Below are positions 11,196-28,596 of a stretch of DNA of 36,412 bases, one piece after another. This DNA comes from Sulfuritalea sp. (lineage in GTDB: Bacteria > Pseudomonadota > Gammaproteobacteria > Burkholderiales > Burkholderiaceae_C): assembly GCA_021737875.1 (NCBI GenBank), contig JAIPDD010000008.1, forward strand, positions 1 to 36,412. Reading direction: 5' to 3'. A program made the position numbers and the translations under genes. Positions within the stretch are counted from its first letter, which is position 1. Every line of letters starts with the position of its first letter. Under the pieces are notes generated by a model, which had not been told where the DNA came from, ran no database searches, and saw only the letters and a program-made list of their open reading frames with translations.

Positions 11196-11280
11196 GCCCG
11201 GGTGGTGAAATTGGTAGACTCAGGGGACTCAAAATCCCCCGCCGCAAGGCGTGCCGGTTCGAGTCCGGCCCCGGGCACCA
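11196..11280 (+). tRNA. tRNA-Leu (anticodon CAA)
   Basis: An 85-nt tRNA including an encoded CCA. The acceptor stem GCCCGGG pairs with CCCGGGC before ACCA. The anticodon stem GGGGA/TCCCC encloses the loop CTCAAAA, giving anticodon CAA (reads UUG). A long variable arm (CGCCGCAAGGCG) marks a class II tRNA, and the T arm GCCGG-TTCGAGT-CCGGC is complete. The gene stands alone and is followed directly by an intrinsic terminator. No integrase or att duplication is nearby. Confidence 0.97.
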
Positions 11281-11399: not shown

Positions 11400-11493
11400 T
11401 CACGACAGCAGCTGCCAGCTCACAGGGAATTTTCATGTGTGGGCCCAGTTTGATGAACACCCCAAGCAACGGTAAAACGTGGAGACTTCCAAT

Positions 11494-13053
11494 ATGTCAG
11501 ACGAAGCAACAACGCCAAGCAGCCCCTCAAGGCGTCGCACAGGCCGGGGTAGCGGCACAATTCGTGTCGCGCCCTCCACCACCCAATACCGCAACCTCAA
11601 GCACCGGTTTACGCCCACACCGATGGTCTCTGAGGACGAGTTGGAAGCCATCCACAACGCCTCGCTGACCATTTTGGAAGAAATGGGCATGGATTTCATG
11701 CACGAAGGCGCGCGCGAGATACTGAAAAAAGCTGGGGCCGACGTGCGTGCAGGTTCTGAGCGCGTGCGTTTTGACCGCAATATGATTCTTGAGGCGATCA
11801 AAACCTGCCCTTCAGAATTCACGCTGCATGCGCGCAACCCCGAGCGCAATGTTCACATCGGTGGAAAAAATTTGGCATTTGCCCAAGTGGCCAGTCCACC
11901 GAACGCCTCCGACATGCAAGGCGGTCGCCGCGCTGGCAACCAACGCGATTTCCGTAACTTGGTCAAGTTGGCCCAACGCTATGACGTGATCCACTGCTCT
12001 GGCGGCTACCCCGTAGAACCGGTCGATTTGCATGCCTCAATTCGGCATCTGGATTGCTTGTCCGATATTGCCAAGCTCACGGACAAGCCTTTTCACGCCT
12101 ACTCTTTGGGCAAGGAACGCAATGAAGACGGCTTAGAAATTGCACGCATTGCCCGGGGTATCACCAAAGAGCAAATGGACCGAGAGCCTTCCTTGTTCTC
12201 GATCATCAACAGCTCGTCACCTTTGCGCTTAGATACGCCCATGTTGCAAGGCATCATAGAAATGTCGGCCCGCAACCAAATTATTATTTTGACGCCCTTC
12301 ACCTTGGCAGGCGCCATGGCCCCAGTGACGATTGCTGGCGCGCTCGCACAGCAAAATGCCGAAGCATTGGCAGGTATTGCCTTTACCCAGCTGGTTCGCC
12401 CCGGAGCCCCGGTGGTGTACGGCGGCTTTACTTCGAATGTGGACATGAAAACGGGGGCGCCTGCGTTTGGAACCCCGGAGTACATGAAAGCAGTCCTGGT
12501 GGGTGGGCAGTTGTGCCGCAAATACGGCGTTCCCTACCGCACTTCCAATGTCAACGCCGCCAACACCGTGGATGCCCAAGCGGCTTACGAGTCGGTGTTT
12601 TCGCTGTGGGCCCTGACCCAGGCCGGTGGCAACTTCATCATGCATTCAGCAGGCTGGATGGAAGGTGGACTCACCGCGTCGTTTGAGAAATTTATTCTCG
12701 ACTGCGATCTACTGCAAATGGTCGCTGAGTTTTTAACGCCACTGGATGTCAGCCCGGCCGGTCTGGGGCTCGATGCCGTGCGCGAGGTTGGCCCCGGCGG
12801 GCATTACTTTGGCACCGCCCACACCTTGGAGCGTTTTGAAACCGCGTTTTACTCTCCCATCATCTCAGATTGGCGCAATTTTGAGACCTGGGAAGAAGCC
12901 GGTAAACCCACGGCGTACGAAAAGGCGAATTCCGTTTGGCAAAAAGAGTTGGCTGCTTACGAGCGCCCTCCTATGGACAAAGCCATTGAAGAAGAACTAG
13001 ACGCCTTTGTGGCAAAACGCAAATCTGAGGGTGGCGTACCCACTGACTTCTAA
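11494..13053 (+). CDS. MttB-family (non-pyrrolysine) amine methyltransferase homologue
   Basis: A 519-residue member of the trimethylamine methyltransferase (MttB, PF06253) family. Family blocks include EDELEAIHNASLTILEEMGMDF, FAQVASPPNASDMQGGRR, CSGGYPVEPVDLHASIRHLDCL, TPFTLAGAMAPVTIAGALAQQNAEALAGI and VREVGPGGHYFGTAHTLERF. The frame runs uninterrupted, so this is not a pyrrolysine TAG-readthrough enzyme. Characterised non-Pyl relatives such as MtgB demethylate quaternary amines (glycine betaine) onto a corrinoid protein. ATG 11494 is preferred, with GGAG nine bases upstream, over the tracked GTG. The dimethylglycine-dehydrogenase-like gene follows after 37 bases, which points to a betaine-type substrate. 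No corrinoid protein is encoded nearby. Confidence 0.85.
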   Translation: MSDEATTPSSPSRRRTGRGSGTIRVAPSTTQYRNLKHRFTPTPMVSEDELEAIHNASLTILEEMGMDFMHEGAREILKKAGADVRAGSERVRFDRNMILEAIKTCPSEFTLHARNPERNVHIGGKNLAFAQVASPPNASDMQGGRRAGNQRDFRNLVKLAQRYDVIHCSGGYPVEPVDLHASIRHLDCLSDIAKLTDKPFHAYSLGKERNEDGLEIARIARGITKEQMDREPSLFSIINSSSPLRLDTPMLQGIIEMSARNQIIILTPFTLAGAMAPVTIAGALAQQNAEALAGIAFTQLVRPGAPVVYGGFTSNVDMKTGAPAFGTPEYMKAVLVGGQLCRKYGVPYRTSNVNAANTVDAQAAYESVFSLWALTQAGGNFIMHSAGWMEGGLTASFEKFILDCDLLQMVAEFLTPLDVSPAGLGLDAVREVGPGGHYFGTAHTLERFETAFYSPIISDWRNFETWEEAGKPTAYEKANSVWQKELAAYERPPMDKAIEEELDAFVAKRKSEGGVPTDF

Positions 13054-13090
13054 GCTATCAAAACATTTTTCTGATTAAAGGAACCTGGAC

Positions 13091-15523
13091 GTGAAAACAA
13101 CAGCACAAGTGGTCGTTATTGGTGGCGGTGTCGTGGGATGCTCCGTGCTTTACCACCTGACCAAACTCGGTATGAAAGATGTGGTTTTGCTCGAGCGCGA
13201 CCAACTCACTTCGGGGTCGACTTGGCATGCAGCCGGCGGATTTCATACGCTCAACGGTGACCCCAACGTAGCCAAGCTGCAAACCTATACCGTCAATTTG
13301 TACAAAGAACTCGAAGAGGTCTCTGGACAATCGTGCGGTTTGCATTTGTCTGCGGGTCTGATGCTCGCAGACACCCCTGAGCGCATGGAGTTTTTAAAGC
13401 ACACCCAAGCCAAAGGCCGCTACCTCGGGATGGAAACCGAAATCATCTCGATGGCAGAAGCCAAAAAGCACTTTCCATTGCTCGATGAAAAACACTTTTT
13501 AGGCGCGCTCTACGACCCCAACGAAGGCCACTTGGACCCGTCGGGAACCACCCATGCCTATGCCAAAGCGGCGCGTTTGGGCGGCGCCACCATTGAGTTG
13601 CAAACCATGGTGGAAAAATTAGAGCCCCGTGCAGACGGTGGATGGAACGTGATCACCAACAAAGGCACCATTGTTGCGGAACATGTGGTGAACGCTGGCG
13701 GACTGTGGGCGCGTGAGGTCGGACGCATGGTGGGCATTGAGTTGCCAGTTTTGGCCATGGAACACATGTACATGATTACGGAAGACATTCCTGAAGTCAT
13801 GGCGTTCAACAAATCCAGCGGCAAAGAATTAGGCCATGTGATTGACTTTGGAGGCGAGAGCTACCTGCGCCAAGAGCGCAACGGCGTTTTGCTTGGAACG
13901 TATGAACGCGCTGGCAAGCCCTGGTCACCTAAAAACACACCGTGGTCTTTTGGCCAAGAGTTGCTGCAACCCGATATTGACCGCTTGTTGCCTTCTTTGG
14001 AAATTGCGTTTAAGCACTTCCCTATTCTGGAGAACACCGGTATCAAGCAAGTGATCAACGGGCCCTTTACCTTTGCGCCCGACGGCAACCCTTTGGTCGG
14101 CCCGGTCCAAGGTTTGTCTAACTTCTGGTGTGCCTGTGGCGTGATGGCGGGCTTTAGCCAAGGCGGTGGCGTCGGCTTGGCACTCGCCAACTGGATGGTG
14201 CACGGCGACCCAGAGTTTGACGTGTGGGGCATGGATGTCAGCCGCTATGGTGACTGGGCCAGCCGCACCTATACCAACGCCAAAGTACGCGAGAATTATT
14301 CCCGGCGCTTTCGTATTCGTTTTCCGAACGAAGAGTTGCCAGCGGCGCGTCCTTTGCAAACCACGCCTTTGTACGACCGCATGCTCTCGCAAGGCGCAGT
14401 TATGGGCGACAGCTGGGCGATGGAAACGCCGCTGTGGTTTGCACCCAAAGGCAGCAAGGCCGAAGACATTGTGTCTTTCCACCGCTCCAATGACTTTGAA
14501 CCGATCAAAGCCGAATGCAAGGCCGTTCGTGAAGCCGTTGGTATTACCGAGATTGCCAACTTCGCCAAGTACGAGATCACTGGGGTCGGCGCTGAAACTT
14601 GGTTGCTCAAGGTCATGACCAATGCCATGCCAAAAACGGGCCGCTTGGTCTTAACGCCGATGCTCAACCACAACGGCAAATTGATTGGTGACTTTACGGT
14701 GGCCAAAGCCGCTGACAACCGTTACCTGATGTGGGGTTCGAGCCAAGCGCAGGTTTACCACATGCGTTGGTTTGAACAAACGCTGCCCAAAGATGGTTCC
14801 GTCGTCATCAAACCCTACGGCATGAAGCTCGTTGGCCTGTCCATTGCTGGCCCCAAAGCCCGCGATCTGCTGGCCCGGGTGTGTGACGAAGACGTTTCTA
14901 ATGACGCCTTCAAGTTCATGGACTACCGCGAAATGGTGGTTGCCAATGTGCCCACCATGACCAACCGCATTACCTACACCGGTGACTTGGGCTATGAAAT
15001 TTGGGTCTCGCCTGAATATGAGCTGTGCCTGTATGAGGCCTTGATGGAAGCAGGAAAAGACCTCGGCTTGCGCAACTTTGGAATGCGCGCCCTGCTGTGC
15101 TTGCGCTTAGAGAAAAACTTTGGCACCTGGTACCGCGAATTCCGCCCCATTTACGGCGCGTTTGAAGCGGGTCTGGATCGTTTTGTCAAATTTGACAAGG
15201 GTGACTTTATCGGCAGAGCCGCTGCGTTAAAGGAAAAAGAAGAAGGCCCCAAACTCACCCGCATTTACATGGTTGTGGATGCCACCACAGCCGACGTGAT
15301 GGGCGACGAGCCGATTTGGCACCAAGACAAAGTCGTGGGCTGGGTCACTTCTGGTGGCTTTGGTCACTACGTCAATCAGTCATTGGCCCAAGGGTATGTG
15401 CCCACCGAATTATTGAGTGGGCCGGACTTGAGTTTCCAAATTGAAATCTTGGGGGATCGCCGGTCTGCCACCTTGCAGATGGACCCCCCGTTTGATCCCA
15501 AGGCTTTGCGCATGCGCATGTAG
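13091..15523 (+). CDS. Dimethylglycine dehydrogenase-like FAD oxidoreductase fused to GcvT
   Basis: An 810-residue two-domain flavoprotein. The N-terminal DAO-type FAD domain starts with VVVIGGGVVGCSVLYHL and has LTSGSTWHAAGG. His46 in that motif corresponds to the histidine that carries covalent FAD in mammalian dimethylglycine dehydrogenase. From about residue 430 there is an aminomethyltransferase (GcvT) folate-binding domain ending PPFDPKALRMRM. Expected reaction: dimethylglycine to sarcosine (or a similar N-methyl oxidation), with the carbon captured as 5,10-methylene-THF. The GTG start has AAGGA eight bases upstream. It lies between the mttB-like gene and soxBDAG; sarcosine dehydrogenase is the main alternative, but SoxBDAG next door makes that redundant. 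Confidence 0.88.
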   Translation: MKTTAQVVVIGGGVVGCSVLYHLTKLGMKDVVLLERDQLTSGSTWHAAGGFHTLNGDPNVAKLQTYTVNLYKELEEVSGQSCGLHLSAGLMLADTPERMEFLKHTQAKGRYLGMETEIISMAEAKKHFPLLDEKHFLGALYDPNEGHLDPSGTTHAYAKAARLGGATIELQTMVEKLEPRADGGWNVITNKGTIVAEHVVNAGGLWAREVGRMVGIELPVLAMEHMYMITEDIPEVMAFNKSSGKELGHVIDFGGESYLRQERNGVLLGTYERAGKPWSPKNTPWSFGQELLQPDIDRLLPSLEIAFKHFPILENTGIKQVINGPFTFAPDGNPLVGPVQGLSNFWCACGVMAGFSQGGGVGLALANWMVHGDPEFDVWGMDVSRYGDWASRTYTNAKVRENYSRRFRIRFPNEELPAARPLQTTPLYDRMLSQGAVMGDSWAMETPLWFAPKGSKAEDIVSFHRSNDFEPIKAECKAVREAVGITEIANFAKYEITGVGAETWLLKVMTNAMPKTGRLVLTPMLNHNGKLIGDFTVAKAADNRYLMWGSSQAQVYHMRWFEQTLPKDGSVVIKPYGMKLVGLSIAGPKARDLLARVCDEDVSNDAFKFMDYREMVVANVPTMTNRITYTGDLGYEIWVSPEYELCLYEALMEAGKDLGLRNFGMRALLCLRLEKNFGTWYREFRPIYGAFEAGLDRFVKFDKGDFIGRAAALKEKEEGPKLTRIYMVVDATTADVMGDEPIWHQDKVVGWVTSGGFGHYVNQSLAQGYVPTELLSGPDLSFQIEILGDRRSATLQMDPPFDPKALRMRM

Positions 15524-15534
15524 GAGCTGTCCTG

Positions 15535-16791
15535 ATGTCTCATTACTCGGCATGGTCTTTGTTGCGCAATGCGCTCAGTGGACACCAACATTGGGAGCGG
15601 GCTTGGCGAGACCCGCAACCGAAAAAAACCTATGACGTGATCATTGTCGGAGGGGGTGGGCACGGACTCGCCACAGCCTACTACCTTGCCAAAAACCATG
15701 GCATCAAAAATATTGCTGTGCTGGAAAAAGGCTATATTGGTTCGGGCAATGCGGGGCGCAACACCACCATCGTGCGTTCCAACTACATGATGCAAGAGAA
15801 CACCCCGTTCTACGAGCACTCCATGTCTTTGTGGCGTGACCTGTCGGCGGACTTGAACTACAACGTGATGTTTTCTCCACGCGGCTATTTGTACGTGGTT
15901 GTGTCGCCAAACGCACTCGATGCACAAATTCGCCGCGCCAACACCATGCGCTTGAACGGAATTCGCGCTGAAATTTTGACGCGTGAAGACGTGATGAAAG
16001 AAGCGCCCTACCTGGACTTTTCTGCCAACGCGCGCTTTCCCATTTACGGCGCCATGCTCCAACCCGATGCCGGAACGGCCCGCCACGACGCCGTGGTCTG
16101 GGGCTACGCCCGCGCAGCCAGTGACTTGGGCGTAGACATCATCCAAAACTGCGAAGTGCTGGATTACGAATGGTCGGGCGAGCGCATCACTGGCGTCAAA
16201 ACCACCCGCGGCGATATCAGCGCAGCCAAGGTAGGTATTGCAGTTGCGGGGAACACTTCTCCCTTGGCGCAAAAAGCCGGCTTAACGCTCCCCATTGAAA
16301 GCCACGTCTTGCAGGCCTATGTCACGGAGTCCATCAAGCCCATCGTGAACCACGTTGTTGTATGGTCGGCTTCGTATTTTTACTTTTCGCAGTCTGACAA
16401 AGGAGGCTTGGTGTTTGGCGGGCATATTGACCGCTACAACTCGTATGCCCAACGCGGCAATCTCGCCAATGTGGGTGAGGTGTCCCAGGCCTTGGTCAGT
16501 GCCATGCCTAGCGCAGCGCGTTTGCGAGTGTTGCGCCACTGGGGTGGCATCATGGACATGACACCCGATGGAAGCCCCATCATCACAACAACGCCCGTTG
16601 ATGGCTTGTACCTCAACGGCGGTTGGTGTTACGGCGGCTTCAAGGCCACGCCCGCTTCGGGTTGGTGTTTTGCCCACACCATTGCCAATGACAAAGCGCA
16701 TGACTTTAACGCTGGCTTCACCATGGACCGATTTGCAAAAGGCCGGTACATCGATGAAGCAGGCACCGGTCCTTACAACCATTTGCAATAA
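15535..16791 (+). CDS. soxB: Sarcosine oxidase beta subunit
   Basis: A 418-residue subunit of heterotetrameric sarcosine oxidase (SoxBDAG), which oxidises sarcosine to glycine, with formaldehyde passed to THF and oxygen reduced to peroxide. The dinucleotide fold YDVIIVGGGGHGLATAYYLAKNHG binds FAD. GTARHDAVVWG (His184) matches the histidine that covalently binds FMN in characterised beta subunits. GYIGSGNAGRNTTIVRSNY and RHWGGIMDMTPDGSPII are family blocks. AGGAG lies seven bases before the ATG, overlapping the end of the upstream gene. First of the canonical B-D-A-G order. Confidence 0.95.
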   Translation: MSHYSAWSLLRNALSGHQHWERAWRDPQPKKTYDVIIVGGGGHGLATAYYLAKNHGIKNIAVLEKGYIGSGNAGRNTTIVRSNYMMQENTPFYEHSMSLWRDLSADLNYNVMFSPRGYLYVVVSPNALDAQIRRANTMRLNGIRAEILTREDVMKEAPYLDFSANARFPIYGAMLQPDAGTARHDAVVWGYARAASDLGVDIIQNCEVLDYEWSGERITGVKTTRGDISAAKVGIAVAGNTSPLAQKAGLTLPIESHVLQAYVTESIKPIVNHVVVWSASYFYFSQSDKGGLVFGGHIDRYNSYAQRGNLANVGEVSQALVSAMPSAARLRVLRHWGGIMDMTPDGSPIITTTPVDGLYLNGGWCYGGFKATPASGWCFAHTIANDKAHDFNAGFTMDRFAKGRYIDEAGTGPYNHLQ

Positions 16792-16834
16792 GCAGCAAAC
16801 TCACCCTTAGTGACCCCCAAGAAAGCGCAGCACC

Positions 16835-17104
16835 ATGCTCAGAATTGACTGTCCCTATTGCGGCAAACGCGACCACGAAGAGTTCAGCTACTTTGGCGAT
16901 GCCACCAAACCCTACCCCGGCTTAGAGGTTGAAAACCACGATGCCTGGGTCGACACCGTGTACACGCGCAACAACCCCCGTGGAATTCACACGGAGTTTT
17001 GGCAACACACTTTGGGCTGCCGCCGTTGGTTGGTGGTGAAACGCCATACCGTGACGCATGACATTGAATCGGTCATCCCTGCGTCAGAAAGAACACTGCC
17101 ATGA
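16835..17104 (+). CDS. soxD: Sarcosine oxidase delta subunit (zinc-binding)
   Basis: An 89-residue delta subunit. The zinc ligands expected in the family are all present: Cys6 and Cys9 (CPYCGKRD), His58 and Cys62 (WQHTLGCRRW). The C-terminal block VVKRHTVTHDIESVIPA is also characteristic. It helps assemble the SoxBDAG tetramer. The stop codon overlaps the soxA start by four bases (ATGA), indicating translational coupling. The ribosome-binding site is weak (AAGAAAG). Confidence 0.95.
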   Translation: MLRIDCPYCGKRDHEEFSYFGDATKPYPGLEVENHDAWVDTVYTRNNPRGIHTEFWQHTLGCRRWLVVKRHTVTHDIESVIPASERTLP

Positions 17105-20100
17105 ACGCAAGTCAACACCCCGGCGGCGCTTTCCGCCTTGCTACTGGCGGGCGCATCGACCGAAGCCAAAAAGTGCGCTTTACCTTGGACGGAAAAACCA
17201 TTGAAGGGTTTGCAGGCGACACCGCAGCGTCAGCCCTCATCGCCCACGGCCAACACCTGGTGGCGCGCTCTTTCAAGTACCACCGCCCCCGTGGATTCAT
17301 GGGCGCAGGCGTTGAAGAAACCAATGCCCTGCTGACTGTTGGCCAAGACGGAACGCGCGAACCCAATATTGCTGCAACAGTGCTCGAAATAGAGCCAGGC
17401 CTTACCACCCAAACCCAAAATGCATGGCCGTCGGTGCGCTTTGATCTGATGGCGATCAACTCGGTCTTGTCGCCTTTTTTTGTGGCGGGCTTTTACTACA
17501 AGACATTCATGGGGCCAACCCGTGGTGCATGGATGCTTTATGAGCACTTCATTCGCAAAGCAGCTGGCTTAGGCGCCTCGGCCATTGATGCCGATGTCAA
17601 CCGCTATGACTGGCACAACGATTACACCGACGTCCTTGTCATTGGCTCGGGAGCCGCTGGTCTCAGTGCCGCCCTCAACGCAGCCCGCGCAGGGGCCGAT
17701 GTCATGCTTGTTGAGCAAGATTTCGAAATGGGTGGTGACTTGCTCAACCACAACGTTGACAGTGCGCAAGCAAAGTGGCTCAAGCAAACACTGCAAGACA
17801 TTGATGCCACTGGCAAAGTCAAACGGTTCACCCGTGCCACCGCGTTTGGCGTGTACGACGGCAATACTGTTGGCGTCATCGAGCGCTCTGCCCCTGGTGT
17901 GACCGATCCCGCCTTTGGCGTTCCGCGCCAACGCATGCGCACCGTTCGGGCTGCAGCCATCGTGATGGCGTGTGGTGCGATTGAGCGCCCGTTGGTGTTT
18001 GCTGGCAATGACAAACCCGGCGTCATGCTAGCCAGCGCGGTGTCTTCTTATGTCAACCGCTATGCCGTTGCCCCCGGAAAGAACGCGCTGTTTTGTGTCA
18101 ATAACGATGCCGCTTACCTTGGGGCCTTTGCCTTGGCGCGCAGTGGTGCAAGCGTTCACGTGGCAGACCTTCGGGCGTCGGTCCCTGAAGATCTGACCAG
18201 TCAAGCGCAGCAGTTGGGTATCACCCTTCACACCAGCACAGCGGTGACAGAGGTTCAAGGAGGCTTGCATGCCAAGTCATGCACCTTATCGCACTACGAC
18301 GCGACCAACGCAACAGTTCAAAGTGAAAAGTGCCGTTTAGCGATTGATCTGGTCGCGATGTCGGGCGGATGGACGCCCACGGTGCACCTGAGCTCCCACC
18401 GCAACGTCAAACCCATTTACCGCACGGATATCGCTTGCTTTGTCCCTGGCGCTTTTGATCGCGCCCAATTCGGCGCGGGCTCGATGGTGGGTGAACAAAC
18501 ATGGCGTGGTGCGATTGCATCGGGATGGCTTGCCGGTGCGCAAGCCGCTGGTTTTTTGGGACGCCAAGCCGCTGGGCCAGCCCCTGTGATGGACGACGCC
18601 ACCTCCATGGCGTTTGTTCCTGCGGGACCTTTGCGCGACGCCCAGTCCAAAGGCAAAGCCTTTATTGATTTTCAAAACGATGTCACCGTCTCCGATATCG
18701 AATTGGCGCACCGCGAAGGCTACCAATCGGTAGAGCACCTCAAGCGCTACACCACCTCGGGCATGGGAACCGACCAAGGCAAGACGTCGAACTTGAATGC
18801 CTTGACCCTGATGGCCGCCCAACGTGAAATGGATATTTCTGCGGTCGGTACAACCACATTTCGCCCGCCCTACACCCCGGCGTCCTTGGGCGCTTTGGCT
18901 GGCCGCAATATTGGCCCCCACTTCCAACCGGAGCGGCGAACGTCCATGCACGACTGGCATCTTGCGCATGGCGGCGTCAAGATGGAAGCGGGCTTGTGGC
19001 TGCGCCCCCTGTGGTACAGCACCCACGGCGCAACCTTGTCCGAGGCCTACAAAGTGGAGATGGACTTTGTGCGTGAAAAGGCAGGCATCGCTGACACCTC
19101 CACTTTGGGGAAAATTGATGTTCAAGGCCCCGATGCTGCAGAGTTTTTAGACCGCGTGTATGTCAATGGCTTCTCCAAACTTGCCGTTGGCAAAGCCCGC
19201 TATGGATTCATGTTGCGTGAAGACGGCATCGTGCTAGACGATGGAACAACCAGTCGCATCAGCCCGACCCAGTTCTTTATGACCACCACCACCGCACAAG
19301 CTGCTCGGGTGATGAGCCATTTGGAATTTTTATTGCAAGTCGTTTGGCCCGAGTTGCGGGTTACCGTGGCTTCGGTCTCCGACCAATGGGCTGCCATGAG
19401 TGTGGCAGGTCCCGAAGTGCGCAAGGTCTTAGAAGCGGCATTCCCCAACGTAGATTTCAGTACCGACGTTTTCCCCCATATGGGTGTGCTCGACACGGTT
19501 GGAACCGGCGCGTTGGCTGGTGTGCCTTTGCGCATTTTGCGTTTGACTTTTTCTGGCGAATTGGCCTACGAAGTTTTCACACCCACCCACCTGGGTTACC
19601 GCGTTTGGGAACACTTGCTTGCAAGTGGCAAACCATGGCAACTGCGCCCCTACGGCCTGGAGGCTTTGGGTTCTTTGCGGATTGAAAAAGGCCACGTGGT
19701 GGGCTCGGAAATGGATGGACGCACCACCTTGGATGACCTGGGTATGGGCAAGATGGCCAGCAAACTCAAACCCTTTTGGGGCGGGGCGCTGCGCCAAAGC
19801 GAAAACTTGCAGCGCACCAACCGGCCAACCCTGGTGGGACTGGAGGCCATTGGCAAAGACGATGCGCCGTCCAACGGTGCGATTTTGTTCTTTGCCGATG
19901 ACACGGTCCAAGGCCACGGCCGCGGTCATATCACCTCCACCACCTTTAGCAAATCCATGGGAAAAGCCATTGGCTTAGGCCTGCTAGAGGGTGGCACGGC
20001 CCATGTTGGCAAAGAAATTATTGCTGCCTCTCCCACGCAAGGACGCCAGTACCGACTGCGGGTGGTAGACCCTTGCTTCCTCGATGCAGAAGGAGTGCGT

Positions 20101-20112
20101 TACCGTGCTTGA
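17101..20112 (+). CDS. soxA: Sarcosine oxidase alpha subunit
   Basis: A 1003-residue alpha subunit. Order of domains: an N-terminal ferredoxin-like domain (VRFTLDGKTIEGFAGDTAASAL...ARSFKYHRPRG), which has no cysteine cluster and so should bind no Fe-S, as in known SoxA; a Rossmann domain from about 177 (DVLVIGSGAAGLSAALNAARAGADVMLVEQ) that binds NAD; and a C-terminal GcvT folate domain (from about 600, with FSGELAYEVFTPTHLGYRVWEHLL). The last domain transfers the sarcosine methyl carbon to THF as 5,10-methylene-THF. Length is normal. Overlaps of 4 bases with soxD and 8 with soxG tie the subunits together. Confidence 0.96.
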   Translation: MNASQHPGGAFRLATGGRIDRSQKVRFTLDGKTIEGFAGDTAASALIAHGQHLVARSFKYHRPRGFMGAGVEETNALLTVGQDGTREPNIAATVLEIEPGLTTQTQNAWPSVRFDLMAINSVLSPFFVAGFYYKTFMGPTRGAWMLYEHFIRKAAGLGASAIDADVNRYDWHNDYTDVLVIGSGAAGLSAALNAARAGADVMLVEQDFEMGGDLLNHNVDSAQAKWLKQTLQDIDATGKVKRFTRATAFGVYDGNTVGVIERSAPGVTDPAFGVPRQRMRTVRAAAIVMACGAIERPLVFAGNDKPGVMLASAVSSYVNRYAVAPGKNALFCVNNDAAYLGAFALARSGASVHVADLRASVPEDLTSQAQQLGITLHTSTAVTEVQGGLHAKSCTLSHYDATNATVQSEKCRLAIDLVAMSGGWTPTVHLSSHRNVKPIYRTDIACFVPGAFDRAQFGAGSMVGEQTWRGAIASGWLAGAQAAGFLGRQAAGPAPVMDDATSMAFVPAGPLRDAQSKGKAFIDFQNDVTVSDIELAHREGYQSVEHLKRYTTSGMGTDQGKTSNLNALTLMAAQREMDISAVGTTTFRPPYTPASLGALAGRNIGPHFQPERRTSMHDWHLAHGGVKMEAGLWLRPLWYSTHGATLSEAYKVEMDFVREKAGIADTSTLGKIDVQGPDAAEFLDRVYVNGFSKLAVGKARYGFMLREDGIVLDDGTTSRISPTQFFMTTTTAQAARVMSHLEFLLQVVWPELRVTVASVSDQWAAMSVAGPEVRKVLEAAFPNVDFSTDVFPHMGVLDTVGTGALAGVPLRILRLTFSGELAYEVFTPTHLGYRVWEHLLASGKPWQLRPYGLEALGSLRIEKGHVVGSEMDGRTTLDDLGMGKMASKLKPFWGGALRQSENLQRTNRPTLVGLEAIGKDDAPSNGAILFFADDTVQGHGRGHITSTTFSKSMGKAIGLGLLEGGTAHVGKEIIAASPTQGRQYRLRVVDPCFLDAEGVRYRA

Positions 20113-20707
20113 TTCAACTTTCCTACGCAGCCCCTTTACCGGGCACAATGCCGTTTCGCAGCCTGACAAGCAAGGTTTGGTTCAAGTGCATCTCCAGGCC
20201 CACGTCTTACCCAGCGTGACCCTCATCAGCACGTGGGTGCGTGGAGAAGCCAAGCTCGCGTCGACACTCAAGCAAGCATTGCAAGTGGCCATTCCACAGA
20301 GCACAGGAAAAACAGTGTCCTGTTCTCTTGGCTTATTGATGCGCACTGGGCCGCAAGAACTCATGCTCATTGGAACAAGGGATGAAGACATCCAAACGGC
20401 CTTGCGCGCGCATATAGTCGCCGACGTCGGTTCAGTCACCGATTTGAGCCAAGCGCGGTGCCGCATCCATGTCAGCGGAGCCAAGGCACAAGAAGCTTTG
20501 GGCAAGCTCTTCGCCCTGGACTTTCGCCAAGCTGCGTTTGCCTTGAATGACATCGCGCTGACGGGCCACCACCATGTGCCCTGCACGGTCCACCGCTTGG
20601 GGGATCAGTCGTTTGATCTCTATGTTTTCAGCACCTACGCCTTTGGGCAATTGGAGTCGCTTATCGATGCGTCGCGCGAATTTGGAGTCGATTTAAGTCT
20701 AAATTAA
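20105..20707 (+). CDS. soxG: Sarcosine oxidase gamma subunit
   Basis: 200 residues from a GTG at 20105, seven codons inside the tracked ORF. AAGGAG at 20090-20095 lies nine bases before this GTG, which decides the start and leaves an 8-base overlap with soxA. The gamma subunit is a GcvT-like small fold that stabilises the tetramer. Visible blocks are STWVRGEAKLASTLKQALQ, DLSQARCRIHVSGAKAQEALGKLFALDF and TVHRLGDQSFDLYVFSTYAFGQLESLID. Gamma is the least conserved subunit, but its position after soxA is canonical. Last gene of the methyl-amine block. Confidence 0.92.
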   Translation: MLDSTFLRSPFTGHNAVSQPDKQGLVQVHLQAHVLPSVTLISTWVRGEAKLASTLKQALQVAIPQSTGKTVSCSLGLLMRTGPQELMLIGTRDEDIQTALRAHIVADVGSVTDLSQARCRIHVSGAKAQEALGKLFALDFRQAAFALNDIALTGHHHVPCTVHRLGDQSFDLYVFSTYAFGQLESLIDASREFGVDLSLN

Positions 20708-20764: not shown

Positions 20765-20800
20765 AAAGCAAATATGACAATATCGTTGGTTTCACGCTAT
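20751..20800 (+). repeat. 12-bp direct repeat around the RND adaptor start
   Basis: GTTTCACGCTAT occurs at 20751-20762 and again at 20789-20800, a spacing of 38 bases. The first copy overlaps the right arm of the inverted repeat and the second lies inside the first codons of the adaptor gene. Confidence 0.6.
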
Positions 20801-22009
20801 GTTCTGGGTGCTGTCGTCACACTCAGCCTCGTTGCATGTTCGGATAAAAAAGACGCTGAAAAAGCCGCGTCAGTTTCCGCACCTGCGCCCAGCGCGTCAA
20901 GTGCTTCTGCACCCGCTCCCACGCCAGCCGCCTCAGGCGCTTCCGCTGCTGCCCCACCGGGCCCGCCCGTAAGCGTTACCACGGTCAAAGCCGAACTGCG
21001 CGACATGGCTGTCGTATTGAAAGCCACTGGCACGGTGATGCCCTTAACCAGCGTTGATGTCAAAGCCCAGGCCAGCACCTTGATCAAAACGGTGCATATC
21101 AAAGAGGGGCAGTTTGTCAAAGCGGGTGACTTGATGTTCACCTTGGATGCGCGAAGCGATGAAGCCAATGTCGCCAAAGCACGTGCCCAATTGGCCAAAG
21201 ACCAAGCCACATTGGCCGATGCCCAGCGCCAATTTAAACGTTCACAGCAACTTTTTTCTCAAAACTTCATTTCGCAAGGTGCGGTTGACACCACCCAAGC
21301 CGTTGTAGAAGCCGCCACAGCGACTGTCGCAGCGGATCAGGCTGCGATCGATGCCGCTCATGTGGCATTGTCTTATGCCCAAGTACGGGCGCCCCATTCT
21401 GGGCGGGCGGGAGCTATCAGCGTGTCATCCGGGAGCGCCGTCCAAAGCAATGCCAGTACCTTAGTGACCATCACCCAACTCGACCCCATCGCCGTGGGGT
21501 TTAGCCTGCCGCAGCGCAACTTGGTCGATGCGATCGCAGCGCTCAAAGATGGAGGCGCTAGCGTGACTGCCACATTGGCCGATAACGGCGGCAGCTTCAA
21601 GGGCAAACTGAAATTCGTGGATAACACCGTGGACGCGGCCTCAGGCGCCGTCAAGGCCAAAGCCGTTTTCGCTAATAAAGAAGAGCGCTTGTGGCCTGGT
21701 GCTTTTGTTGAAATCTCGCAAACCGTCAGCACCCTCAAAGAGGCTGTGATCGTTCCGCAAGCTGTGATCATTCAAGGCGCGCGCGGGACAATTGTGTATG
21801 TGGTCGAAGATGGCAAGGCCGTCATGCGTCCCATCAAACAGCTCATGGGACAAAACGGCGAAGCTGCTGTCACGGGGCTCCAAGCGGGTGAAACCGTTGT
21901 CTTGGATGGCAAGCAAAATGTCCGCCCAGGCTCGGTGGTCGTCGAGCGGGCGAAAGATCCCAAGGCCAACGCTCCTGCGGGCGCGGCGTCAGGCAGCCGC
22001 GCACCATGA
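20774..22009 (+). CDS. RND efflux periplasmic adaptor (membrane fusion) lipoprotein
   Basis: A 411-residue HlyD/AcrA-type adaptor. The signal peptide ends in the lipobox LVAC (Cys22), so it should be lipid-anchored. A 40-residue Ala/Pro/Ser-rich linker (about 33-68) leads into the first barrel/lipoyl half (VDVKAQASTLIKTVHIKEGQFVKAGDLMFTLD). An alpha-hairpin rich in Ala/Gln (AKARAQLAKDQATLADAQRQFKRSQQLF) and the returning lipoyl/beta-barrel halves (YAQVRAPHSGRAGAISVSSGSAV) follow. It would link the inner-membrane pump to an outer-membrane channel. It overlaps the pump gene by four bases (ATGA). No outer-membrane factor is encoded here, so a TolC/OprM-like protein elsewhere is presumably used. 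Confidence 0.93.
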   Translation: MTISLVSRYVLGAVVTLSLVACSDKKDAEKAASVSAPAPSASSASAPAPTPAASGASAAAPPGPPVSVTTVKAELRDMAVVLKATGTVMPLTSVDVKAQASTLIKTVHIKEGQFVKAGDLMFTLDARSDEANVAKARAQLAKDQATLADAQRQFKRSQQLFSQNFISQGAVDTTQAVVEAATATVAADQAAIDAAHVALSYAQVRAPHSGRAGAISVSSGSAVQSNASTLVTITQLDPIAVGFSLPQRNLVDAIAALKDGGASVTATLADNGGSFKGKLKFVDNTVDAASGAVKAKAVFANKEERLWPGAFVEISQTVSTLKEAVIVPQAVIIQGARGTIVYVVEDGKAVMRPIKQLMGQNGEAAVTGLQAGETVVLDGKQNVRPGSVVVERAKDPKANAPAGAASGSRAP

Positions 22010-25000
22010 ATTTCTCCGAATTATTTATCCGCCGTCCGGTAATGACGGTGCTGCTCAACGTCGCGATTGTTGGAGCGGGTGTCATTGGTTTACAGAAAAT
22101 TCCGGTGGCGGCACTACCGAGCTATGACACCCCCATCATCAACGTATCGGCTTCCTTGCCCGGGGCCAACCCGGAAACCATGGCCAGTTCGGTGGCCTTG
22201 CCACTGGAAAAGCAGTTTCAAACGGTACCGGGTCTCAAAACGATTAGCTCCACCAGCACGCTGGGTAGCACTTCCCTGACCTTAGAGTTTGAAGAAGGGC
22301 GCAATATTGATGCTGCAGCGGTTGACGTTCAAGCCGCCCTTTTGCGCGCCCAACGCTCCTTGCCGCAAGACATGACTTCACCGCCAGCGTACCGCAAGGT
22401 GAACCCTGCGGATGCGCCGGTGCTTTTGATTTCCCTCACCTCTCCCTCGCTGACCCCGGCAGACCTGCAAGACTACGCAGAGCATTTAATTTCTCCCACC
22501 TTGTCTACGATTGACGGTGTGGCACAGGTCATTATTTACGGCTCTAAACGCTTCGCAGTGCGTGTGCGTGTGCAACCGGCAGCACTGGTGGCCCGCAATA
22601 TCGGCCTTGACGAAGTCAGTGCGGCGCTGCGCGCTGCCAACGTCAACACGCCCGTGGGAACCCTTGAAGGCCCCAAGCAGACGCTGGTCTTGCAAGCCAA
22701 TCGCCAACTCAAAAATGCCGCTGATTTTGCCAATCTGATTATCAGTAACAAGGGTGGCACACCCGTGCGCTTGCGCGACGTGGCCAAAGTAGAAAACAGC
22801 GTTGAGACGCTCAAAAGTTGGGCGACCTTCAATGGAGAAAACTCCATCACATTGGCCATCCAGCGCCAACCTGGTGCCAATACCGTGCGGGTGGTGGACT
22901 CCATACGTGCAGCGCTACCCGCATTGCAAAGCCAAATGCCGCAATCGATCAACCTGACGCCCATTAACGACCGCTCCCTGTCCGTTCGCGAAGCCTTGCA
23001 CGACGTGACCCTGACCTTGATGGGAACAATCGCCTTGGTGGTCTTGGTGATCTTTTTGTTTCTGCGCCGATTTGTCGCCACTGTCATTCCAACGCTTTCC
23101 TTGCCTATTTCTTTGATGGGTGCGGTGGCACTTTTGTGGGGGATGTCTTACAGCTTAGACAATATTTCGCTCCTGGGTCTCACGCTTGCGGTCGGTTTGG
23201 TGGTTGACGATGCGATTGTGGTTTTAGAAAACATCATTCGCCATGTTGAAGATGGGGAAGACCCGTTTCAGGCGGCCTTGGTGGGAGCGCGCGAAGTCGG
23301 ATTCACCATTGTTTCCATTTCAACGTCTTTGATTGCGGTTTTTATTCCTATTTTCTTCATGCCAGGCGTGATCGGCTTGTTGTTCCATGAGTTTGCAGTG
23401 GTCGTGGGTTTAGCGATTGTGGTGTCTGCTTTTGTGTCGCTGACTTTGGTCCCCATGTTGGCCAGCCGGTTCTTAAGTGATGAGGCCCATAAAAAACCAC
23501 CCGGCTCCTTGGTCCGCTTATTTGAGCGTGCATTTGACAAAACATTGGCCGCATACACGCGCGTTTTAGATTTGGCACTGAACCACCGCAAATTCATTTT
23601 GCTTGTGGCCGCGAGTACCTTTGTAGCCACCTTTTGGTTAGTCAGCGTGATTCCCAAAGGGTTTTTTCCCGAAGAGGATATCGGCCAAATTCAGGTATCC
23701 ACCGAGGCCAGCGAAGACATTTCATTTGCTGCCATGGTGCAGCTCCAAGAACGGGCCGCCGCCATTATTCGGGCGGATGCGAACGTCAAAGCGGTGAATT
23801 CGTTCAATGGCGGAACAGGTGGACAAAATTCAGGGCGCATGTTCATTACGCTGCATCCCAGCAGCGAACGCCAGCCTATCAAACAAGTGATTGAGAATTT
23901 ACGCAAGAAACTTCGGGGCGTCGCAGGGATCAATGTGTTTATGCGCCCAGTGCAAAACCTGCAACTCGGAGGACGCCAAAGTAAAGCCCAGTACCAGTAC
24001 ATTTTGCAAAGTGTGAAGGCCGATGAATTGAGCAGTTGGGCCACTAAGCTGCAAGAAAAGCTGCGTGCTGACCCCTTGTTTCGTGATGTCACCAGCGATT
24101 CACAGTTACGGGGTCTGCAAGCACAACTCAAAATTGACCGCGACATGGCCAACACCTTGGGCGTGTCCATTGATTCCATCCGCTCGGCTCTTTTCAGCGC
24201 TTTTGGTGAGCGCCAAGTGTCTACCATTTACCTGCCAACCGACAGCTACCAAGTCATCATGGAGGTCGCACCCGAGGCAAAACAGGATGAGCAGGCCTTG
24301 AATGGCATTTATGTGCGCTCTTCCTTTGGCACCTTGGTTCCCCTGTCGAGCTTTACCACGGTCGAGAGAACCGTGGGCCCGACATCTATCAACCACGTGG
24401 GCCAACTCCAAGCCGTGACTGTTTCCTTCAATCTTGCGCCGGGCACGGCTTTGGGCGATGCAACCGCGAAAATCGATGCTGCTTCTGAGGCGATTCAAAT
24501 GCCATCAAGCATCATCACCAGTTACGGAGGCGATGCGGCCGTCTTTAAAAACTCGCAAAGCAGCCAAGCGATCTTAGTCATTGCTGCCCTGGTCGTGATC
24601 TACATCCTGCTTGGGGTTTTGTATGAGAGTTACATCCACCCCATCACTATTTTAGCGGGGCTACCGTCGGCTGCCGTAGGCGCACTGGCTACGCTGATGT
24701 TGTTTGGCCAAGACTTGACCTTGATCGCCACCATTGGCATTGTGTTGCTCATCGGCATTGTGAAGAAGAACGCCATCATGATGATTGACTTTGCACTCGA
24801 GGCGCAGCGTCACCGTGGAATGACGCCCGCGCAAGCGATTCGTGAGGCTTGCATCCTTCGGTTTCGACCCATCATGATGACCACACTCGCCGCCTTGGTA
24901 GGAGCATTACCCATTGCGATGGGCATTGGTGCAGGTGCAGAGCTGCGCCAACCCTTGGGACTGGCGGTTGTGGGTGGTTTGGTTTTTTCTCAGGCGATCA

Positions 25001-25089
25001 CGCTATTTATCACGCCTGTTTTATATTTGGCACTCGACCGCTTGAGTGGCTCCGGGCCCATAGTGAACCCTGAGGTCGATTTTTCCTAG
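22006..25089 (+). CDS. RND multidrug efflux pump, MdtB/MdtC-like (HAE1 family)
   Basis: A 1027-residue proton-driven inner-membrane pump with 12 expected membrane helices in two repeats. The N-terminus FSELFIRRPVMTVLLNVAIVGAGVIGLQKIPVAALP, SASLPGANPETMASSVALPLE and the YRKVNPADAP block resemble MdtC/MuxC more than AcrB. The proton-relay aspartates lie in GLVVDDAIVVLENI at about 395-408, and the second-repeat lysine in GIVKKNAIMMIDFALEAQRHRGMTP. Length is normal. MdtB and MdtC normally work as a heteromer, but only one pump gene is present, so it probably forms a homotrimer with the preceding adaptor. Substrates cannot be predicted. Confidence 0.95.
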   Translation: MNFSELFIRRPVMTVLLNVAIVGAGVIGLQKIPVAALPSYDTPIINVSASLPGANPETMASSVALPLEKQFQTVPGLKTISSTSTLGSTSLTLEFEEGRNIDAAAVDVQAALLRAQRSLPQDMTSPPAYRKVNPADAPVLLISLTSPSLTPADLQDYAEHLISPTLSTIDGVAQVIIYGSKRFAVRVRVQPAALVARNIGLDEVSAALRAANVNTPVGTLEGPKQTLVLQANRQLKNAADFANLIISNKGGTPVRLRDVAKVENSVETLKSWATFNGENSITLAIQRQPGANTVRVVDSIRAALPALQSQMPQSINLTPINDRSLSVREALHDVTLTLMGTIALVVLVIFLFLRRFVATVIPTLSLPISLMGAVALLWGMSYSLDNISLLGLTLAVGLVVDDAIVVLENIIRHVEDGEDPFQAALVGAREVGFTIVSISTSLIAVFIPIFFMPGVIGLLFHEFAVVVGLAIVVSAFVSLTLVPMLASRFLSDEAHKKPPGSLVRLFERAFDKTLAAYTRVLDLALNHRKFILLVAASTFVATFWLVSVIPKGFFPEEDIGQIQVSTEASEDISFAAMVQLQERAAAIIRADANVKAVNSFNGGTGGQNSGRMFITLHPSSERQPIKQVIENLRKKLRGVAGINVFMRPVQNLQLGGRQSKAQYQYILQSVKADELSSWATKLQEKLRADPLFRDVTSDSQLRGLQAQLKIDRDMANTLGVSIDSIRSALFSAFGERQVSTIYLPTDSYQVIMEVAPEAKQDEQALNGIYVRSSFGTLVPLSSFTTVERTVGPTSINHVGQLQAVTVSFNLAPGTALGDATAKIDAASEAIQMPSSIITSYGGDAAVFKNSQSSQAILVIAALVVIYILLGVLYESYIHPITILAGLPSAAVGALATLMLFGQDLTLIATIGIVLLIGIVKKNAIMMIDFALEAQRHRGMTPAQAIREACILRFRPIMMTTLAALVGALPIAMGIGAGAELRQPLGLAVVGGLVFSQAITLFITPVLYLALDRLSGSGPIVNPEVDFS

Positions 25090-27552: not shown

Positions 27553-28596
27553 ATGACCAGCAGCGCAACCTCTTTTTCAGTCTCCATCGAACCGAGCAAA
27601 GTGAACTTTTCATGTGCATCCGATGAAACCCTTTTGGCAGCCGGTATCCGTCAAGGTGTTGGACTGGCTTATGGATGCAAAGACGGCGCATGCGGTTCTT
27701 GCAAATGCAAAATGACCTCAGGATCGGTCACGCACGCCAACTTTCAACGCAAAGCCCTAAGCGAAGAGGAAGAAGCCAACCAGTTTGTTCTCACCTGCTG
27801 CGCCACACCGCAAAGCGATATCGTGTTGGAATCTCGCCAAGTCACGCAGATCGGGACACTCCCGATCAAAAAAATGCCAACCCGTGTGAGCAGCCTGGTT
27901 AAAAAATCGCCCGATGTCGTACTCATGCATTTGCAGCTGCCCGCCAACGACAGCTTTGCCTTTCGGGCGGGCCAGTACATTGAATTCATCATGCGTGACG
28001 GCGCACGGCGCAGCTACTCCATGGCCAATGCCCCGCACAATGGTGCCAGTGTTGAATTACACATCCGTCACATGCCCGGAGGCCGCTTCACCGACCTGGT
28101 GTTTGGCTCGATGAAGGAAAAAGACATACTCCGAATTGAGGGGCCCTTTGGCTCCTTCTACCTGCGCGAGGACTCCGACAAGCCCATGGTCTTTTTGGCC
28201 TCTGGAACCGGCTTTGCGCCCTTAAAAGCATTGTTGGAACATATGCAGCACAAGGGCATTGAACGTCCAACGACTTTGTACTGGGGCGGTCGCCGTCCTG
28301 CAGATTTGTATTTGCAAGACTGGATCACAACACAGCTGGCCCTCATGCCGCACTTGACATTCATTCCCGTGGTCTCAGATGCACTCCCCGAAGACCAGTG
28401 GAGTGGCCGCACCGGCTTTGTTCACCAAGCCGTGTTGGATGATTTTGCCGATCTATCCGCCTACCAAGTCTATGCCTGCGGTGCACCGATTGTGGTGGAC
28501 TCTGCAAGGCAAACGTTTTGTGCAAAAGCCCATCTACCAGAAGATGAATTTTTTGCTGACGCGTTTACGTCGGAGGCGGACAAGAAGCAGGCTTGA
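27553..28596 (+). CDS. [2Fe-2S] ferredoxin-flavin-NAD(P)H reductase (CDP-6-deoxyglucoseen reductase-like)
   Basis: A 347-residue electron-transfer protein. A plant-type ferredoxin domain (about 1-95) has Cys42, Cys47 and Cys50 in YGCKDGACGSCKC and the fourth ligand at Cys82 (LTCC). A ferredoxin-reductase domain follows, with the FAD motif RRSYSMAN, the NAD(P) motif SGTGFAPLKALLEHM and the terminal YACGAP block. The architecture matches AscD-type reductases and oxygenase reductase components. It would carry electrons from NAD(P)H to an unknown partner; no oxygenase or sugar-dehydratase gene is adjacent. The ATG lies five bases from the divergent epimerase start. The end overlaps the convergent permease gene by 32 bases. 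Confidence 0.9.
   Translation: MTSSATSFSVSIEPSKVNFSCASDETLLAAGIRQGVGLAYGCKDGACGSCKCKMTSGSVTHANFQRKALSEEEEANQFVLTCCATPQSDIVLESRQVTQIGTLPIKKMPTRVSSLVKKSPDVVLMHLQLPANDSFAFRAGQYIEFIMRDGARRSYSMANAPHNGASVELHIRHMPGGRFTDLVFGSMKEKDILRIEGPFGSFYLREDSDKPMVFLASGTGFAPLKALLEHMQHKGIERPTTLYWGGRRPADLYLQDWITTQLALMPHLTFIPVVSDALPEDQWSGRTGFVHQAVLDDFADLSAYQVYACGAPIVVDSARQTFCAKAHLPEDEFFADAFTSEADKKQA

Follow-up and report, generated by a model that had tools for sequence, protein, structure and literature searches.

A compact gene cluster in which a methyltransferase of the MttB superfamily stands directly ahead of a dimethylglycine dehydrogenase (DMGDH) and a heterotetrameric sarcosine oxidase raises the question of how an aerobic bacterium might begin to demethylate a quaternary amine. 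The window, that is the whole stretch of 36,412 nucleotides analysed here, belongs to a 2.17 Mb MAG of 154 contigs that is 82% complete, so absences from this genome are weak evidence. Its host is an aerobic, freshwater comamonad related to Rhodoferax, the label freshwater being taken from what related MAGs are called and where they come from, and not from the record of this sample. All six co-directional genes that a sequence-only reading had placed here, no two neighbours more than 43 bases apart, are present in the order it gave between 11494 and 20707 (Table 1), and the identities assigned to them are upheld by Pfam and NCBIfam profile matches. The intergenic distances from mttB to soxG are 37, 11, 43, −4 and −29 bases, and a GTG at 11479 is a possible alternative start for mttB-I.

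Table 1. Genes of the six-gene operon and the tRNA gene upstream of it, with positions in the window
Feature	Position	Strand	Description
tRNA-Leu(CAA)	11196..11280	+	ARAGORN, Rfam tRNA; upstream boundary, outside the system
mttB-I	11494..13053	+	non-pyrrolysine MttB-superfamily (MtgB-like) quaternary amine:corrinoid methyltransferase, 519 aa
DMGDH-I	13091..15523	+	GTG start; DMGDH-type flavoprotein with folate-binding GcvT domain, 810 aa
soxB	15535..16791	+	heterotetrameric sarcosine oxidase, beta subunit
soxD	16835..17104	+	sarcosine oxidase, delta subunit; PF04267, 4e-29
soxA	17101..20112	+	sarcosine oxidase, alpha subunit with GcvT domain
soxG	20084..20707	+	sarcosine oxidase, gamma subunit

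The grouping of these genes as an operon is borne out by their order in relatives. Searching GTDB genomes with the MttB-I protein yielded 80 loci, and the gene order is kept in 24/24 of the Comamonadaceae loci examined, as far as their contigs run, so that the grouping is not chance. DMGDH directly follows mttB in Comamonadaceae-type loci wherever the contig extends, one of them (L040) stopping just past mttB. Genes of an RND pump (20774–25089) are co-directional with soxG and start after a gap of 66 bases; considered as a further part of the operon, they are placed outside the system because they adjoin the cluster in only one other full-cluster locus. A promoter scan of the region returned a number of sites about equal to that in shuffled sequences.

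MttB-I is matched by the Pfam profile PF06253 (MTTB) at 684 bits (8e-206) over residues 14–514 of 519 and profile positions 1–500 of 500. Its frame contains the terminal stop only, with no in-frame amber codon, and so the protein has no pyrrolysine and is not a TMA methyltransferase; against the pyrrolysine MttB equivalog model it scores 305, under the cut-off of 525. Compared with solved structures it scores 406 bits against 4yyc, for which no literature was found, 355 bits against 2qne/9yce, the glycine betaine methyltransferase MtgB of Desulfitobacterium hafniense, and 152 bits against pyrrolysine MttB; the solved relatives are near enough for the fold to be assigned from them. The glycine betaine pocket of the D. 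hafniense enzyme (Tyr94, Asn199, Arg309, His345 and Phe353 in the published numbering, which runs one behind the 9yce numbering of the alignment) is a docking prediction made on an apo structure (PMC6855144). Compared with the anaerobic MtgB systems (D. hafniense, Methanolobus vulcani; PMC6855144), to whose protein superfamily it belongs, MttB-I keeps the docking-predicted Asn199, Arg309 and His345, but it carries Ala at the position of Tyr94 and Gly at that of Phe353 and stands in an aerobic context; anaerobic MtgB feeds methanogenesis or anaerobic respiration, whereas here oxidative demethylation would lie downstream. Ala also replaces the docking-predicted Tyr94 in the Comamonadaceae and Rhizobiales rows of the alignment, and the predicted-pocket tyrosine is absent from 16/16 members of the MttB-I tree group. 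In that tree the Comamonadaceae MttB-I group (88/96) is sister to Rhizobiales orphans (100/100) and lies apart from two further types, named after contigs C6 (100/98) and C70 (100/100) of the same genome. The Rhizobiales proteins are about 75% identical and are encoded without DMGDH or sox neighbours within 10 kb, a point that weighs against the pathway proposed below.

The later genes correspond to mammalian-type DMGDH and heterotetrameric sarcosine oxidase in domain layout and motifs, with the difference that here MttB precedes them instead of GbcAB or BHMT. DMGDH-I has the Pfam domains DAO+FAO_M+GCV_T+GCV_T_C and a STWHAAG motif with the flavin-linking HAAG, at His46, and it matches human and rat DMGDH at 617 bits as against 324 bits for bacterial dimethylglycine oxidase (DMGO). 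All four SoxBDAG subunits were found with diagnostic domains: SoxB (DAO; ARHDA motif at residues 182–186) and SoxA (Fer2_4+SO_alpha_A3+GCV_T) score above their NCBIfam cut-offs (TIGR01373, 648.7 bits against 529; TIGR01372, 1176.7 against 1164), while SoxD, with a CPYC...HTLGC zinc-ligand pattern (105 against 116.5), and SoxG, with a weak GCV_T match (TIGR01375, 80, 1e-22, against 144), score under theirs, each having this as the sole family matched. DMGDH normally feeds electrons to ETF, and SoxBDAG is the only enzyme of such a pathway expected, by its family, to use oxygen, MttB not doing so. The description of the cluster as an oxygen-using pathway would thus apply to the sarcosine oxidase step alone. 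Contig C91 (L139:6726-11251) encodes two more DMGDH-like flavoproteins, which are divergent and share 34% and 42% identity with DMGDH-I.

An MttB requires a corrinoid protein, a methyl acceptor or acceptor methyltransferase, and a reactivator, and neither a corrinoid protein nor an acceptor methyltransferase nor a reactivator is encoded inside the window. The six genes are consequently not the complete chain that they had been taken for, the corrinoid protein, the methyl-H4F partner and the reactivator being encoded on another contig of the genome, C23. This carries an MtgC-like protein (PF02310+PF02607, DIHDIG cobalamin motif) that scores 204, under the MtgC model cut-offs (370), and with it MtgD-like (PF00809, pterin-binding), MetF2-like (PF02219), DUF1638, RACo (PF14574) and PurU proteins. 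A GbdR-like regulator, a choline ABC transporter (ChoX, ChoW) and BetA are encoded there too, as is an open frame whose start and position alone suggest a betaine aldehyde dehydrogenase. Proteomics and mutants revealed a comparable gene set in Ruegeria pomeroyi (PMC12478193), which the C23 set matches closely. C23 and the mttB operon are separate contigs in the host genome, and mis-binning of C23 is possible from that genome alone but unlikely to matter, because in a Hydrogenophaga MAG (L039, contig C3; L137, L138) the corrinoid module adjoins mttB-DMGDH-soxBDAG, and because MtgC is found in 21/23 Comamonadaceae genomes bearing the MttB-I type. The Hydrogenophaga contig, of 47.7 kb, also holds betAB. 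Its MtgC match (G218:C3:40058-40756, L138) contains a single in-frame TGA, which may mark the end of the frame or be an error of sequencing or assembly.

The co-occurrence is also seen among genomes of the family, where 6/201 have MttB and 5/201 have MtgC, all five in common. MtgC is thus present in 5/6 MttB genomes as against 0/195 others (Fisher p = 2e-9, uncorrected for shared descent), the sixth MttB genome, in which MtgC gave no match, being a MAG that is 76% complete. On a marine Roseobacter plasmid (L125) an mttB gene adjoins soxBDAG and a DMGDH-like gene, and the combination is therefore not confined to this family.

Overall the operon probably forms one half, the substrate-specific one, of a pathway for B12-dependent N-demethylation in this aerobic freshwater comamonad. 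As the first step MttB-I would transfer a methyl group of a glycine-betaine-type quaternary amine to MtgC, from which MtgD would move it to tetrahydrofolate, and MetF2 would oxidise the resulting methyl-H4F to methylene-H4F, with RACo and the DUF1638 protein reactivating oxidised corrinoid. The dimethylated product would then go to DMGDH-I and the monomethylated product to SoxBDAG, leaving glycine, and the GcvT domains of both enzymes may also load one-carbon units onto folate. The gene identities, the conservation of the operon, the presence and co-occurrence of the corrinoid module, its linkage in one relative and the lack of a true GbcA are observed directly; what the enzymes do, on which substrate and in which direction methyl groups move is inferred.

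Glycine betaine as the substrate is plausible but not settled, because the genome has three types of MttB. It is the simplest reading because DMGDH-I and SoxBDAG fit dimethylglycine and sarcosine and because choline/betaine and GbdR-like genes adjoin mtgCD, and on balance glycine betaine itself is slightly favoured as what MttB-I uses. It goes no further than plausible because each of the three MttB types has a different flavoprotein, because MttB-II has a suite of its own, and because MttB-I departs from the predicted pocket at Tyr94 and Phe353. MttB-II (C6) is a relative of 4yyc (776 bits), and MttB-III is encoded on C70 and C142; MttB-II and the C70 protein retain the predicted-pocket tyrosine. 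Serine dehydratase and FolD genes adjoin the C6-type mttB. The second suite, which runs parallel to the first in this genome and is linked in relatives to C6-type mttB and FolD, consists of SoxBDAG-II, a hydantoinase-A-like protein and a flavoprotein nearest DMGO; its loci (L140 on C123, L118, L137:12757-18268) include a protein of 231–241 aa without a Pfam match. MttB-III is paired with an OYE-family flavoprotein, which by analogy recalls N-methylproline demethylation. This pair is present in two copies (L011:2333-5998 on C70, L012:454-4119 on C142) with proteins 97.9% and 96.2% identical and DNA 88.7% identical, and either the pair has been duplicated or one of the contigs comes from a related strain.

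Less probably, MttB-I could be a new specificity class among aerobic corrinoid methyltransferases, its pocket lacking Tyr94, that acts on some betaine besides glycine betaine, the three MttB types sharing MtgC as their only corrinoid hub and each passing its product to a separate flavoprotein, of the DMGDH, DMGO and OYE types. The explicit alternative, in which MttB-I is specific for some other quaternary amine, MttB-II is the true glycine betaine enzyme and DMGDH-I oxidises the N,N-dimethyl product of that other betaine, is rather unlikely. It gains from MttB-II, which keeps the predicted MtgB pocket including Tyr94, matches D. hafniense MtgB at 432 bits against 355 for MttB-I, and through its links to serine dehydratase, FolD, SoxBDAG-II and the DMGO-like flavoprotein resembles known glycine-betaine catabolic sets, and it gains also from the uniform lack of the tyrosine in the MttB-I group; yet that tyrosine comes from docking on an apo structure and not from experiment, DMGDH-I is the nearest to mammalian DMGDH among the host flavoproteins tested (617 bits against 510 and 249–256), and in Hydrogenophaga it is set I that adjoins mtgC, mtgD and the GbdR-like gene. 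That both suites work on glycine betaine or dimethylglycine under different conditions, set I with an ETF-linked DMGDH and set II with an oxygen-linked, DMGO-like enzyme, is distinctly unlikely, long-lived paralogues usually diverging in substrate, although one genome does hold the two flavoprotein types, nearest DMGDH and nearest DMGO, and the MttB-I and MttB-II types occur together in about 16/23 genomes (by score class).

Most improbable is removal of the first methyl group by a Rieske monooxygenase or a betaine-homocysteine methyltransferase with only a side role for MttB-I, for while the genome has one Rieske oxygenase (C51) and a C23 gene that NCBIfam names betaine-homocysteine S-methyltransferase (470 bits, cut-off 338), the former, its only ring-hydroxylating Rieske protein, reaches 63 bits against GbcA (cut-off 670) and is rejected as such, and the latter is more likely the homocysteine module of a methionine synthase, given its likeness to MtgE, its SAH riboswitch and its being the only PF02574 gene found in the genome. 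Genes of this kind have been described as the homocysteine-binding subunit MtgE (PMC12478193). The riboswitch (RF01057, Rfam, 51 bits) lies directly upstream of the C23 gene on the minus strand (L014:3640-3728). A search of the 82% complete MAG hence gives no true GbcA, and for bmt a BHMT-like gene that probably serves the methionine cycle. Five genomes of the family have strong GbcA-like genes, and none of the five has MttB; in the 23 relatives no hit is above cut-off, with GbcA-like Rieske proteins of about 280 bits in 4/23. Within the window a BenC/MmoC-like NAD(P)H reductase with an N-terminal 2Fe-2S domain is encoded at 27553–28596 (+); no oxygenase partner for it was found there, and as a candidate GbcB it is rejected at 94 bits (cut-off 500). 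Because MttB and MtgC co-occur and the host genome has no true GbcA, the first step is most likely a corrinoid-dependent demethylation, and the proposal that an MttB homologue performs that step in an aerobe appears probable.

The sequence-only reading had called such an arrangement not a textbook system. Demethylation of glycine betaine by MtgB-MtgC-MtgD in aerobes was however published in 2025, shown genetically in Ruegeria pomeroyi and established for aerobic marine bacteria of the Alpha-, Gamma- and Deltaproteobacteria, Sinorhizobium and SAR116 being among the other examples, with the genes for later demethylation often co-located and several MttB copies per genome (PMC12478193), and in view of this the operon is not a new kind of system. 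Held in common are the PF06253 methyltransferase, separate MtgC, MtgD and MetF2, a reactivator of the RamA/RACo type, DUF1638 and an MtgE-like protein, as are the nearby genes for later demethylation and the several MttB paralogues. In contrast to the published systems, mttB here is in a tight operon with DMGDH and soxBDAG, and mtgCD lie apart in the host genome. Loss of MetH as a companion trait is rejected, MtgC and MetH coexisting in three relatives (G083, G164, G187); the absence of MetH from the 82% complete MAG therefore says little, and the trend to MetH loss seen in the marine study does not hold here.

Comamonadaceae or freshwater betaproteobacterial occurrence is absent from the main text of PMC12478193, and literature searches on betaproteobacterial mtgC or a Comamonadaceae glycine betaine methyltransferase found nothing relevant. 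What is added here is the freshwater betaproteobacterial form, the tight six-gene operon and the splitting of MttB types by partner flavoprotein, through which B12-dependent betaine demethylation would be extended from marine bacteria to freshwater Comamonadaceae, a group in which the breakdown of phytoplankton-derived betaines is poorly assigned. One genome with one corrinoid protein, three MttB types and three flavoproteins also offers a natural experiment on MttB specificity. Among the other neighbours of mttB genes, an M24-family protein encoded directly after the C6-type mttB (L010:4398-5600) is partly like the DMSP lyase DddP (260 bits, cut-off 600), and annotated Xaa-Pro peptidase family genes adjoin mttB on a Roseobacter and a Sinorhizobium plasmid.
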